Assembly (NCBI GenBank): GCA_025934735.1
Contig: JAICWP010000001.1
Location: 62,001 to 126,000 of the forward strand
Direction: 5' to 3'
DNA from: Terriglobales bacterium
Lineage (GTDB): Bacteria; Acidobacteriota; Terriglobia; Terriglobales; Acidobacteriaceae
Length of the DNA: 64,000 nucleotides
Under the pieces are notes generated by a model. It did no database searches, had not been told where the DNA came from, and worked only from the letters and a program-made list of their open reading frames with translations. Both the position numbers and the translations under genes were made by a program. Shown one piece after another: positions 29,679 to 35,159 of the stretch (positions are counted from its first letter, which is position 1; each line of letters opens with the position of its first letter).

Positions 29679-30119
29679 TCACTTAGGAAGAACCCTTTCC
29701 GGATTCCCAGTCGGTAACGGATAATTTGAACTCACATTCACACTGAGCGGAGTTTCTATCTCAAACCTGGCGACAGGTGCAGCGGGTACTGGTGGACCGT
29801 GTAAAGAATAGTGAATGACAAGAGTGCCTTGCCAGTCTCGTCTATTTGAAGCATAGCGCCAGTGTTGAATCTCTCGGGCTGCCGTGACTGCAAGTGCATC
29901 CGGTCCCTCGATCTTGGACACAGAGGTGATACGACCAGCTTTATCAATTACAAGCTTGAGCTTCAGGTCGCCCTGAAGCTGCGCCAGTCTGGCGACTGTG
30001 GGATAACTCAAAGGAGTTGCCTTCCAAATTCCTTTCATATCTGAAACCTGTCCGAACGCCGCCCAACAAAACACAACAAGCACAACTGCAAAACTGGCTA
30101 CGCGAATGCATGGTTTCAT
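29679..30119 (-). CDS. TonB C-terminal domain protein
   Basis: 146 residues from ATG 30119 (GGGGAAA ribosome site); a longer frame overlaps the neighbouring ferredoxin and is rejected. Signal peptide MKPCIRVASFAVVLVVFCWA, then a TonB_C fold: SYPTVARLAQLQGDLKLKLV, IDKAGRITSVSKIEGPDALA, and AAREIQHWRYASNRRDW. There is no transmembrane anchor plus proline-rich stalk, so it is not a classical TonB; secreted single-domain TonB_C proteins of this kind are common in Acidobacteriota. Confidence 0.8.
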   Translation of the reverse strand: MKPCIRVASFAVVLVVFCWAAFGQVSDMKGIWKATPLSYPTVARLAQLQGDLKLKLVIDKAGRITSVSKIEGPDALAVTAAREIQHWRYASNRRDWQGTLVIHYSLHGPPVPAAPVARFEIETPLSVNVSSNYPLPTGNPERVLPK

Positions 30120-30219
30120 CGGTATTTCCCCAGCAAATGATAACTTCCCGCCTGCGTTTTGCGCGTCCACCGCCAGCAGTCGGCCATCGACGGTATTGCC
30201 GACCCCTTGCTCCCGGTTT

Positions 30220-30579
30220 TTAGGAATACGGCGCCGGCAGCCCCAGGCTGCGGCGGTAGGCGCGCATTTCATGCTGCTGGTGGGTGCGGATGCGCAGGTC
30301 GGAACGCGGCTTGCCTGTGCACAGCAGGACATATCCCGCTTCCCGATCTTGAGGAAAGTAGGCGTCGGAATCCGACTGGTCCACCTCGCCCGGGCCCTCC
30401 AGGCGTCCCGCGCAGGTCAGGCAACGGCCTTGGTGGCACAGGGCCGGCAGGATGATACCGGCGGCTGCTGCCGCATCCCAGATGTGCTGTTCGGAGTCAA
30501 CTACTATGGCGTGCTCGCCGCGCGGCGTCAGCAGCGTCACTCGGAACACCTGGGAAGGTGCCTGGGATTTGTCGTCCAC
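30220..30579 (-). CDS. [2Fe-2S] plant-type ferredoxin
   Basis: 119 residues. Cluster ligands C48, C53, C56 and C87 in LCHQGRCLTCAG and LLCTG, the classical CX4CX2CX~30C spacing. N-terminal beta-grasp strands RVTLLTPRGEHAIVVD and a helix IWDAAAAAGI. A basic C-terminal tail (RIRTHQQHEMRAYRRS) is unlike photosynthetic ferredoxins. Located 76 bases past the Dps-like gene on the same strand; it could donate electrons to that ferritin, but this is position-based inference. Confidence 0.9.
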   Translation of the reverse strand: MDDKSQAPSQVFRVTLLTPRGEHAIVVDSEQHIWDAAAAAGIILPALCHQGRCLTCAGRLEGPGEVDQSDSDAYFPQDREAGYVLLCTGKPRSDLRIRTHQQHEMRAYRRSLGLPAPYS

Positions 30580-30655
30580 CGATCCATTCTAAAAGAGAGA
30601 AGTCTTCCTGCCCGGCCAGGAGGGTGCCCGGCCGGACAGGAAGCGAAGAAAGGAA

Positions 30656-31279
30656 CTAAGAACCGATGTAGAAGGCCCGGTTCTTGCTGTAGGGCGCCTC
30701 GCCTGGCTCGCCGCGGCGGAAATGGCCGGAAGGGATGCTCTTCTTGTCCCGCTCCCAGCCCAGCAGTTCGATGAACCAGGCCTCGTGCTCGATTTCCTCG
30801 TTGAGGATGCGGGCAGCCATATCGTAAGTGCGCGGGTCCTTGCCGAAGGTGATATCGCATACCGCCTGCCAGCTGCGGATGGCGCAACGCTCCGACTCCA
30901 GCAGCAAGGTCAGGATGTTGACCGCGGTAGGAGGATCGGGCAGCTTGGCGGCGGCGCAACCGGCGCCGTCGTGGAACGCCTTCAGATCGTTGGGCAGCTC
31001 ACCCCCCAGCTCGTAGATGCGGGGCACGATCAGCTCCCAGTGGGCGCGGTCTTCTAGGCGCGCGTCCTCGCAGATCTCTTTGTAGTCTTCGTGACCGGCC
31101 AGGTGCATGCGGAGAATGGTGTAGTAGTAGTAAGTGCTGGCAAATTCGGCGCCCGCATTGGCGATCAGCATCTTGATGAGCTTAGCCACGTCCACGCCGC
31201 GGTTTTGAATCACTTCCACGCCCACGCGCTGGCTGATGTCGCCATGCTTGACGGTCATTTTGTCCTGCTGTTCCGGCAT
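30656..31279 (-). CDS. Dps-like / ferritin-like di-iron protein (DPSL type)
   Basis: 207 residues from ATG 31279, with a strong AGGAGG site. Four-helix ferritin-like fold with two iron-binding helices pairs: AEFAST (E45), LEDRAHWE (E76, H80), LLLESER (E128/E130) and [10 protein letters not shown] (E162, H165). Cysteines C108 and C132 could form the disulfide described for archaeal DPSL (thioferritin) proteins. Oxidises Fe(II) with H2O2 and stores iron, protecting DNA. It is divergent from oxyR with an OxyR-type site between them, so probably peroxide-induced. Confidence 0.85.
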
Positions 31280-31326
31280 ATTTCCTCCTGGCTGGCAGTC
31301 TAGCGCAGAGGTGTTGCAGAGGTCTA

Positions 31327-31363
31327 AGATATGGATTCTATAGTCGTGATAGCTTTTGCCTTT
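31327..31363. promoter_or_regulatory. putative OxyR-binding site between dps-like gene and oxyR
   Basis: The core CTAT (31338-31341), seven bases, then ATAG (31349-31352) exactly matches the inner boxes of the OxyR motif ATAGNTNNNANCTAT-N7-ATAGNTNNNANCTAT. The outer boxes are weaker (AGAT, CTTT). The distance to the oxyR ATG is 43 bases and to the dps-like ATG 48 bases, so it can control both. Confidence 0.6.
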
Positions 31364-31405
31364 GAATGAGTGGAGCAGGGCTCGGCCCTGCCTGCATCGA
31401 ATGCC

Positions 31406-32311
31406 ATGCAAGTTCACCAGCTCAAATACTTTTGCGCAGTCGCCCGGACGGGAAATTTTACCCGCGCCGCCGGGCACGAGCATGTGGCCCAACCCTCCCT
31501 TTCGCAGCAGATTCTGAAACTGGAGGACGAACTTGGCGCCAAGCTTTTTGACCGCCTGGGGCGCACGGCCCGGCTCACCCAGTTCGGGCAGGCCTTCCTG
31601 CCGCGTGCCGAAGCCATCCTGCGGCAACTGGGGGCGGCCAAGCTGGAAATCCAGGAGATGGCGGGCCTGGAGAAGGGCACGGTAGTGGTGGGCGCTATCC
31701 CTACCCTCGCTCCTTATTTTCTGCCCGATCGCCTCACCAGCTTCGCGATGAAGTATCCCGAGGTGCAGGTGAGCGTGGTCGAAGAGATCACGGCGGTGCT
31801 GCTGCAGGGACTGCACGAAGGCCGCATTGACCTGGCGGTGACGGCTCTGCCCGTCGCGGGCGAGGGCCTGGTCTGCGAAGAACTCCTGCGCGAACCGCTC
31901 TATGCAGTACTGCCGCAGCGGCATTCCCTGGCGGGGCAGGCGGCGGTTTCGCTCCGGCAAATTGAGGGCGAGCGATTCCTGCTGCTGAAGGAGGGACATT
32001 GCTTCCGCGATAACACCATTGCCGCCTGCCGCCGCGCCCGCCTGCAGCCCAACGTGGTGTTTGAGAGCGGACAGTTCGCCACCATCCTGGCCATGGTTGC
32101 CGCCGGCATGGGCGTTTCCCTGGTGCCGGCCATGGCGGTAGAGGCGCGCAAAGGCTGCAGGTTCGTGCGCGTGGCTGATCAGAGCGCCTGCCGGCGCGTG
32201 GGCATTGTGCGACTCAAGCAGCATTTCGCCACCCGGGCCCAGAGCGCCTTGCTCGAGCATTTACGGGAAAGTGTGCGCCTGCCCACCCACTTGGCCGCCG
32301 CGGGAGATTGA
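31406..32311 (+). CDS. oxyR: OxyR, LysR-family peroxide-sensing regulator
   Basis: 301 residues from ATG 31406. The LysR HTH occupies residues 1-60 ([20 protein letters not shown] then [20 protein letters not shown]). The effector domain holds [20 protein letters not shown], with cysteines at exactly C199 and C208, the pair that forms the regulatory disulfide in Escherichia coli OxyR, with the same eight-residue spacing. This is strong evidence for peroxide sensing rather than another LysR role. It is divergent from the Dps-like gene and followed after 39 bases by the selenocysteine peroxiredoxin. Confidence 0.93.
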
Positions 32312-32350
32312 GCCGTTCTGTCGGATACAATTATTTTTCAGGAGGACGTC

Positions 32351-32836
32351 ATGCCTGCGCTCAAGGCCGGAGATCCGGCGCCCGAGTTCGAATTGCCCGC
32401 GCTGAGTGGCGGCGTCAAGCAGAAGTTTCGGCTGCGTGATTACCGCGGCAAGAAAAACGTGGTCGTCGCCTTCCACCCCCTCAACTGGACGCCGGTTTGA
32501 GCCCGGCAGATGGCGGCTTACAACGCGGACCTCGCGAAATTTGCCGCCTTCGATGCCCAGGTCGTGGGCATTAGCGTGGACTCGATCTACAGCACCACCG
32601 CGTGGGAGAAGGAGATCGGCCCTCTGGAGTACGCCCTCGCGGCGGATTACTGGCCGCATGGCGAAGTGGCGCAGAAGTTCGGCGTTTTCCGCGACCAGGG
32701 CGAGTTTGCCGGCATCAGCGAGCGCGCCGTCTTTCTCGTGGACAAGAATGGCAAGCTAGCCTTCAGCAAGATCTACCCCATCGAGCAGTTGCCGGAGACG
32801 GCCGAACTCTTCGGAGTGCTGGAACAGCTTAAGTAG
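32351..32836 (+). CDS. peroxiredoxin with selenocysteine (TGA) at the peroxidatic position
   Basis: 161 residues if TGA 32498-32500 is read as Sec50; reading otherwise would stop at residue 49. The active-site pattern PxxxTxxC appears as P43-L-N-W-T47-P-V-U50, with the TGA precisely at the peroxidatic cysteine. The catalytic arginine is R125 in ISERAVFLVD. No cysteine exists anywhere, so a 1-Cys (AhpE/BCP-like) mechanism is likely. Reading frame is intact on both sides and codon use matches neighbours, arguing against decay. AGGAGG precedes ATG 32351. Placed directly behind oxyR, it is expected to reduce H2O2 and organic peroxides. Confidence 0.88.
32498..32548 (+). promoter_or_regulatory. 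candidate bacterial SECIS element
   Basis: Begins at the TGA. Lower stem GGCGGC (32512-32517) with GCCGCC (32543-32548); upper stem CGCG (32524-32527) with CGCG (32533-32536); five-base apical loop GACCT starting with G, 27 bases after the TGA. This meets the usual bacterial SECIS rules (stem of at least four pairs, loop 16-37 bases from UGA, G in the first two loop positions). The internal loop between the stems is large, so the structure is not ideal. Confidence 0.55.
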
Positions 32837-32975
32837 CTTTCGGGTTTCTGGTTTCAAATTTCGCGTTCGAACATCCCTTGAAACTCGAGACTCGAAACTG
32901 TCGCGGCTATTCCCCAAGCAGCCTCCGCTCGTGTAATCTGTCCGTTCTTTTGCGCGAATGGCGCGGGGAGCGGGC

Positions 32976-35159
32976 ATGCACCGGCGGGCCTCCACGGTTC
33001 TGGTTTTCACCACAATTTTTCTGCTCTTGGGCGCCAGCCAGGAAGGGCGCCATGCCGATGCGGCGGCTTCAAAATCCCCGTCGGCCATAACTGGCTTTTA
33101 CGATGCCGCCCAGGAGGAAAAATGGGAAAAGCTTTTCCTGGCGGTGCCGGATCCCAAACAGGCGGAAGAGCACCTGCGCATCCTGACCGCCGCGCCCCAC
33201 ATGGCGGGCACTCCTGAGGACAAGCAAACCGCCGACTACGTCGCCCAGCAGTTCCGCCAGGATGGCCTGCAAACTGAAATCATCGAATACAAAGTGTGGA
33301 TGAATTACCCCAAGGAAATCAGTGTGGACGTGGTCGCTCCTGAGGGGGTCAAAATGCACGGTCCTACCCGCGAGCGCGTCAGTGATGACCGCTTCCAGGA
33401 CGACCCCCGCGTGGTCACGCCTTTCAATGAGTATTCCCCCTCGGCCGATGTGGAAGCCGACGTGGTTTACGTAAACTACGCCCGGCCGGAAGACTTCAAG
33501 AAGCTGGAAGACATGCACGTGGATGTCCGCGGCAAGATCGTCATTGCCCGCTATGGCCAGAATTTCCGGGGAGTCAAAGCCTACGTCGCCCATGAGCACG
33601 GCGCCGCCGGGCTCATCATTTACTCCGATCCCATGGACGACGGCTACTTCAAGGGGGACTCCTACCCCAAAGGTCCGTGGCGGCCCGCCACCGGCGTGCA
33701 GCGCGGCTCCATTGGCTACATGTTTGAGTTCCCCGGCGATCCCACCACGCCGGGAGCGGCATCGGTTCCTGGCCTGCCCGACTCGGAGCGCATTCCGCCG
33801 GACAAGTCGGCGGCCATGCCCAGAATCCCCACTACGCCGCTTTCCTACGCCGACGCCGAGCCCATTCTGCAGCACTTGGCCGGCGCCATTACCCCGCGCG
33901 ATTGGCAGGGCGCCTTGCCCTTCACCTACCATGTGGGGCCCGGACCGGTGCGCGTGCGCCTTCACTTGCAGCAGGATTACCAGTACCGCACCATCTGGGA
34001 CGTCATTGGCCGCATTCCCGGCAGCCAGCAGCCCGACCAGTGGGTGGTGGCCGGCAACCACCGCGACGCCTGGGTATATGGGGCGGTGGATCCCAACAGC
34101 GGCACCACCGCGCTGCTGGAGGCGGCGCGCGGCCTCGGTGAGCTGCTGCACGCGGGTTGGCATCCCAAACGCACCATCGTGCTGGGCAGCTGGGATGGCG
34201 AAGAGCAGGGGCTGATCGGCTCCACCGAATGGGCGGAGCAGCATGCCCGCGAACTGGCCAATGCCGCTGCCTATTGCAATGTAGATGTGGCGGTTTCGGG
34301 GGAAAATTTCGGCGCCTCCGCCGTTCCCAGCCTGAAACAGTTCATCCGAGAGGTGACTACGGCCGTGCCCAGCCCCCAGGGTGGCACGGTTTTCGACGCC
34401 TGGCGCAAAGCGCCCGAAAAGCGCATGGGGCCGACCCAGGAACCCAGTTCCGCCGCCCTAAGCGGATCACAGAACCGCCCTCCAGCGGTGGAGTCGGCGG
34501 GCCCTCCCGTCGGCGACCTGGGCAGCGGCTCCGATTACACCGCCTTCCTGCAGCACCTGGGTGTGCCCTCGGTGGACATCGGGTCCAGCGGTCCTTACGG
34601 CGTCTATCACTCCACTTTTGACGATTTCGAATATTTCAAGAGACTTACCGACCCGACCTTTGCCTACGAACAGGAAATGGCGCGGGTGTACGGCCTGGAA
34701 ATCGTGCGCCTGGCCGATGCCGACGTTCTGCCCTACGACTATTCGGAATACGGAAAAGAGATAGGAGTCTACCTGCAGGCGGCGCGCACCCGGGCAGAGG
34801 CCAAATTTGGCAAGGACCTTCCCGACTTCAAGGCTGCGGTCGAGGCCGCCAGGCGCCTGGAATCGGCGGGAGCGGCTATCGCCAAAGTGCAAAAGAATGT
34901 GCACGATAACGCCGATCGCCTTAACCAGCTACTGGTAGCCGCCGAGCGGGCCTTCCTGCTGCCCCGGGGGCTGCCCAATCGCCCCTGGTATCACCATGCC
35001 ATCTACGCTCCCGGGGTTTATACCGGATATGCTGCCGTGGTCATTCCCGGGGTCAATGAAGCCATTGATGCCGGCGACCGCCAGCGCGCCCAGCAGCAGC
35101 TCACCGAACTCACGTATGTTCTTAACCAGGCGGCCCGGATGCTGCAGAATTTCCGGTAG
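32976..35159 (+). CDS. M28 family peptidase, glutamate carboxypeptidase II-like, exported
   Basis: 727 residues from ATG 32976, preceded by GGGGAG; ATG 32958 is an alternative. Signal peptide, then a PA domain (VKAYVAHEHGAAGLIIYSDP), the M28 di-zinc domain with VVAGNHRDAWVYGAVDPNSG and WDGEEQGLIGSTEWAE, and GSDYTAFLQHLGVPSVDIG; the C-terminal third is the transferrin-receptor-like dimerisation domain. Cleaves C-terminal residues, often glutamate, from peptides in the periplasm. Same strand as prxU, after 139 bases. Confidence 0.93.
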   Translation: MHRRASTVLVFTTIFLLLGASQEGRHADAAASKSPSAITGFYDAAQEEKWEKLFLAVPDPKQAEEHLRILTAAPHMAGTPEDKQTADYVAQQFRQDGLQTEIIEYKVWMNYPKEISVDVVAPEGVKMHGPTRERVSDDRFQDDPRVVTPFNEYSPSADVEADVVYVNYARPEDFKKLEDMHVDVRGKIVIARYGQNFRGVKAYVAHEHGAAGLIIYSDPMDDGYFKGDSYPKGPWRPATGVQRGSIGYMFEFPGDPTTPGAASVPGLPDSERIPPDKSAAMPRIPTTPLSYADAEPILQHLAGAITPRDWQGALPFTYHVGPGPVRVRLHLQQDYQYRTIWDVIGRIPGSQQPDQWVVAGNHRDAWVYGAVDPNSGTTALLEAARGLGELLHAGWHPKRTIVLGSWDGEEQGLIGSTEWAEQHARELANAAAYCNVDVAVSGENFGASAVPSLKQFIREVTTAVPSPQGGTVFDAWRKAPEKRMGPTQEPSSAALSGSQNRPPAVESAGPPVGDLGSGSDYTAFLQHLGVPSVDIGSSGPYGVYHSTFDDFEYFKRLTDPTFAYEQEMARVYGLEIVRLADADVLPYDYSEYGKEIGVYLQAARTRAEAKFGKDLPDFKAAVEAARRLESAGAAIAKVQKNVHDNADRLNQLLVAAERAFLLPRGLPNRPWYHHAIYAPGVYTGYAAVVIPGVNEAIDAGDRQRAQQQLTELTYVLNQAARMLQNFR

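Follow-up and report, generated by a model that had tools for sequence, protein, structure and literature searches.

A probable selenocysteine peroxiredoxin adjoining oxyR in an Acidobacteriota genome

Overall, we believe that the gene at 32351-32836 of the window (the whole 64,000-nucleotide stretch of DNA analysed here, from a soil-type acidobacterium of the Terriglobales) is almost certainly a selenoprotein gene, in which UGA codon 50 would be read as selenocysteine (Sec) by way of SelB and an RNA hairpin, yielding a 161-residue peroxiredoxin (Prx) of the AhpC-TSA family that is probably under OxyR control. The frame and the position of its TGA, the Sec machinery of the genome, the covariation of the hairpin and the gene neighbourhood can all be read in the DNA, and the features are collected in Table 1.

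Table 1. Features of the Sec-peroxiredoxin gene and its neighbourhood (window coordinates)
Feature	Position	Strand	Basis
Sec-peroxiredoxin gene (probable), 161 codons + TAG, AhpC-TSA family, AhpE-like	32351..32836	+	frame, Pfam, homologues, predicted structure
In-frame TGA, codon 50, peroxidatic position, probable selenocysteine codon	32498..32500	+	same codon TGA in 46/109 homologous loci
Shine-Dalgarno AGGAGG before the Prx ATG	32340..32345	+	read from sequence
SECIS-type hairpin	32512..32548	+	fold z -2.9, covariation, complete upper stem confined to TGA forms
Hairpin lower stem, GGCGGC/GCCGCC	32512-32517 with 32543-32548	+	
Hairpin upper stem, CGCG/CGCG	32524-32527 with 32533-32536	+	
Hairpin apical loop, GACCU, 5 nt, first base G	32528-32532	+	
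oxyR, LysR family, Cys199 + Cys208	31406..32311	+	ordinary TGA stop; start codon inferred from homologues
Dps-like ferritin (archaeal-type DPS), divergent from oxyR	30656..31258	-	NF040955 281.8 bits, cut-off 250; PF00210; start codon inferred
[2Fe-2S] ferredoxin, downstream of dps	30220..30579	-	PF00111; TIGR02008 just under cut-off

The reading frame and its catalytic codon

The frame runs from ATG to TAG (M1 to K161) and contains a single TGA, which leaves 49 codons before it and 111 after it and completes the active-site motif P43-L-N-W-T47-P-V-U50 of the PxxxTxxU pattern. Arg125 is kept, there is no Cys elsewhere in the protein, and with the PxxxTxx(C/U) motif and the catalytic Arg the sequence has the defining features of a peroxiredoxin. 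The first-pass annotation had placed an in-frame TGA at the peroxidatic Cys of an otherwise intact gene, and this and each of its particulars (the 49 and 111 codons, Arg125, the lack of any other Cys) are borne out on the sequence. The Pfam AhpC-TSA match spans the TGA (E 9e-33), G+C at the three codon positions is nearly equal before it (0.67/0.43/0.80) and after it (0.64/0.38/0.84), and identity to homologues persists beyond it, as against locus L106 (0.65 before, 0.60 after). Among 34 aligned Prx sequences, P43, position 50 and R125 are invariant.

The homologue set comprised 80 loci from a scan of genome contigs and 30 more from 299 genomes of the class, which makes 109 with the window's own copy left out. 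The codon at the catalytic position is TGA in 46 of these, TGC in 43, TGT in 19 and AGC in one, and thus TGA or a Cys codon in 108 of the 109, the pattern that an alignment of homologues had earlier been suggested to look for; TAA, TAG or a TGA elsewhere occurs within the aligned Prx frame of none of them. With 46 loci sharing the TGA at this very codon and no other stop in the aligned frame of any locus, its position is not plausibly due to chance, and the earlier judgement that a random nonsense mutation was unlikely holds. The TGA form is found in Acidobacteriota, Myxococcota, Chloroflexota, Bacillota, Armatimonadota and Planctomycetota, where many of the hosts are MAGs and single assignments may be off. 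Sec and Cys have been swapped repeatedly during the history of this Prx, since the Sec/Cys label requires nine changes on a maximum-likelihood tree, at least seven of them forced by well-supported branches.

The closest relative of the window's Prx on this tree (L105, also L176; G251:C20:118202-118675; support 100/96) is syntenic with it, adjoining the same M28 peptidase, and carries Ser (codon AGC) where the catalytic residue would be, with the motif Thr replaced by Glu. By its sequence it is probably a dead peroxiredoxin homologue. Since this syntenic sister has Ser for Sec and has lost the Thr, the branch can apparently lose catalysis, a point that we counted against the Sec reading. The same genome (G251) keeps a TGA Prx paralogue elsewhere, at G251:C7:284503.

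A SECIS-type hairpin and the selenocysteine machinery

The RNA 3' of the TGA (fold z = -2.9) can form a hairpin that begins about 11 nt downstream of the UGA and in which an internal loop separates a lower and an upper stem. Under the published bSECIS model (PMC13188914), the apical loop lies 16-37 nt from the UGA, measures 3-9 nt, has a G within its first two positions and tops an upper stem of 4-16 bp. The Prx hairpin agrees with this model throughout, with a UGA-to-loop distance of 27 nt, the loop GACCU and the 4-bp stem CGCG/CGCG. Covariation was assessed over nine pairs in 27 TGA sequences, against 500 shuffles and against versions with the pairing partner slid. The pairs are formed in 74.9% of cells compared with 56.6% in shuffles, both sides of a pair have changed in 43 cells compared with 18.1 +/- 3.0 in shuffles and 8 to 27 with the partner slid, and the covariation score is 0.415 compared with 0.140 in shuffles; the covariation exceeds that of all 500 shuffles and of every slid version. 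The upper stem is complete in 23 of 47 TGA rows (window included) and in none of 62 Cys homologues, a contrast that is clear even though the Fisher p of 7e-11 is optimistic since the rows are related. Some TGA homologues do not match the exact stem register of the window's hairpin. An Rfam SECIS_1 search found no match in the window's genome and none in any of 14 control genomes, and is thus uninformative, and an Rfam scan of window positions 30000-34000 with E up to 1 returned nothing.

The first-pass annotation had pointed to selA, selB, selC (tRNA-Sec) and selD in the same genome as the check on its reading, and to the absence of selB and tRNA-Sec as the finding that would speak against it. 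The host genome (4.94 Mb in 50 contigs, 99.8% complete) contains all four: tRNA-Sec at 70.6 bits (cut-off 47), called tRNA-SeC with anticodon tca by ARAGORN, SelB at 351 bits (cut-off 242), SelA at 554 bits (cut-off 268) and SelD at 366 bits (cut-off 125). Because tRNA-Sec, SelB, SelA and SelD are all present in so complete a genome, that objection falls away. SelD has its own in-frame TGA near the N-terminus (AAGUASK), at what we take to be its catalytic position. There is also a second, shorter SelB-like match at a contig edge (G000:C37:39-893, L010; 196 bits, below the cut-off).

Across genomes, with SelB called at E below 1e-60, SelB occurs among the matches listed in 42 of 46 genomes with a TGA Prx and in 174 of 253 others (Fisher p 7e-4). 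Since SelB is widespread in the class (216 of 299 genomes, among the matches listed), this class-wide correlation is weak, and the comparisons at family level and after filtering for completeness therefore weigh more. Again among the matches listed, SelB is found in 25 of 25 TGA-Prx genomes that are at least 95% complete, and in the window's family in 10 of 10 TGA-Prx genomes compared with 10 of at least 30 others (p 2e-4), while none of the family's 20 SelB-lacking genomes has a TGA Prx. The four TGA-Prx genomes without SelB at the strict threshold are incomplete assemblies (75-91% complete). The Sec coding proposed at first pass is thus supported by the tRNA-Sec, SelA, SelB and SelD of the genome, by the TGA-or-Cys homologues and by the covarying SECIS-type hairpin.

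Consider, as an alternative, that a nonsense mutation or a sequencing error has struck an ordinary Cys Prx gene, leaving a pseudogene or an artefact. A single change would turn TGC or TGT into TGA, and Cys forms do occur among the close homologues, but there is no frameshift and no second stop, coding periodicity carries on, the hairpin has its complete upper stem in TGA forms alone, and TGA stands at the same codon in the 46 loci from Acidobacteriota, Myxococcota, Chloroflexota, Bacillota and others; we consider this account very improbable. Even less probable is that UGA is read as another amino acid, genome-wide or through a general suppressor. The Prx frame would be open under such codes, yet oxyR directly upstream terminates in TGA, the TSA-family, SelD and Fdh genes seen have their TGA at catalytic Cys/Sec positions, and the genome has a complete Sec system. 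We give an equally slight chance to a model wherein ribosomes terminate at the TGA and reinitiate at the ATG at 32510, where an ORF (32510-32836) for a separate 108-residue protein does exist. A protein made from it would be missing both the catalytic loop and the first strands, the restart ATG is codon 54 and is predicted to lie within the helix (residues 48-59) that bears the catalytic residue, and it is the whole frame that is conserved in homologues.

Relatives in the superfamily and in the genome

The AlphaFold2 model of the Prx has a peroxiredoxin fold (mean pLDDT 96.2), and Foldseek matches it to peroxiredoxins at TM 0.85-0.90 by query length, with 2-Cys Prx1/PrxA chains ranked first. 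By sequence, the best match among solved structures is M. tuberculosis AhpE (Rv2238c; E 1e-21, residues 4-141), in an alignment that spans the catalytic Cys and the conserved Arg. AhpE is a one-Cys peroxiredoxin with mycothiol/mycoredoxin as its reductant (PMC4360819), and it has Cys where the window's Prx would have Sec. The first-pass annotation had suggested kinship with known Sec-peroxiredoxins such as Eubacterium acidaminophilum PrxU. The kinship stands at the level of the family, PrxU being a Sec peroxiredoxin of the same superfamily, but does not extend to PrxU itself, since orthology is rejected by the NF040737 model (64 bits against a cut-off of 270) and AhpE is the nearest by sequence among solved structures. 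Sec-peroxiredoxins (Prx, PF00578, TxxU) are a known prokaryotic selenoprotein family (PMC1794560, PMC13188914), with which the window's Prx shares the AhpC-TSA domain, the Sec at the peroxidatic position of PxxxTxxU and a bSECIS within the coding sequence, and from which it differs in its Acidobacteriota host and its OxyR/Dps neighbourhood. It is a well-supported new example of this family rather than a new principle, and TxxU Prx is little described for Acidobacteriota in the literature examined.

Our in-depth examination covers the window's Prx gene, and other selenoprotein candidates in the genome come from family searches. A PF00578 search returned eight frames with one TGA each: two AhpE-like (the window's and C37:52360), one Bcp/PrxQ-like (TPGU), one AhpC-like (TGGU), three UxxC Prx-like and one deiodinase-like (SYTUPPF), where for the seven others the family names are our reading of the sequence. 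The second AhpE-like Sec-Prx paralogue (G000:C37:52360-52842; L143, L175) has the motif HPLDWTPTU and is 53% identical to the window's. The six further Trx-fold proteins (L134, L136, L138, L140, L147, L153) each have their TGA at a catalytic-type position, and one UxxC Prx domain sits at the end of a metallo-beta-lactamase-like protein. An FdoG-type formate dehydrogenase (G000:C34:233848, L181) has an in-frame TGA in RIUHSS, the established Sec position of this classic selenoprotein. SelD and this enzyme bring the selenoprotein candidates of the genome to at least ten, a minimum from a few family searches. A 2016 survey set the mark for selenoprotein-rich at six or more and named three rich groups, Acidobacteriota not among them (PMC5029168); a 2006 survey listed the phylum with four selenoproteins in three families (PMC1794560), and three known selenoprotein genes were counted for the single acidobacterium of a 2025 test set (PMC12013277).

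The OxyR/Dps neighbourhood and a proposed mechanism

oxyR ends 39 bp before the Prx start codon on the same strand. Its product has C199 in GHCFRD, C208 and LysR architecture, its nearest solved structures are OxyR, and it scores below the NCBIfam OxyR equivalog cut-off. In other Acidobacteriota, dps lies directly before a TGA Prx (L166, L169, L171, L172, L173, L174), accompanied in L169, L171 and L174 by a divergent oxyR, and in L024 a single strand carries dps, ferredoxin and TGA Prx in that order. The dps/oxyR linkage is absent from most other Prx homologues. The OxyR-linked Sec-Prx described at first pass thus holds for the window, where the genes adjoin, and only in part among homologues, so that the linkage appears recurrent but not universal. 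As a pattern of gene order, it would support a peroxide-response role for the Prx and would predict its control by OxyR. A scan for promoters and terminators found no promoter-like site and one terminator-like site, no more than chance, and among the papers searched none brought a Sec-Prx together with both OxyR and Dps.

We infer Sec insertion in the cell, along with the activity, substrate, reductant and OxyR control of the enzyme, along the following lines. SelB would deliver Sec-tRNA(Sec) to UGA codon 50, aided by the hairpin downstream, and the product would be a peroxiredoxin in which Sec is the sole Cys/Sec residue. Sec50, activated by Thr47 and Arg125, would reduce H2O2, organic peroxides or peroxynitrite and turn into selenenic acid in doing so; the Prx is without a resolving Cys, so the oxidised Sec50 would have to be reduced from outside, by a thiol or by a protein of the Trx/Grx type. 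The adjoining OxyR probably turns on the Prx together with the divergent Dps and ferredoxin.

Standard gene calling would truncate the Prx at residue 49 or begin it at residue 54, and a set of Acidobacteriota peroxidases is therefore probably misannotated. More tentatively, at what we judge to be a little short of an even chance, Acidobacteriota may possess a recurring peroxide-defence island (oxyR, dps, ferredoxin and Sec-Prx) that is controlled by OxyR and dependent on selenium. It would form part of a selenoproteome of Trx-fold peroxidases larger than expected, and OxyR-type peroxide defence in these bacteria would then depend on selenium. From the OxyR/Dps linkage, peroxide defence in Acidobacteriota would seem to hinge on the supply of selenium.
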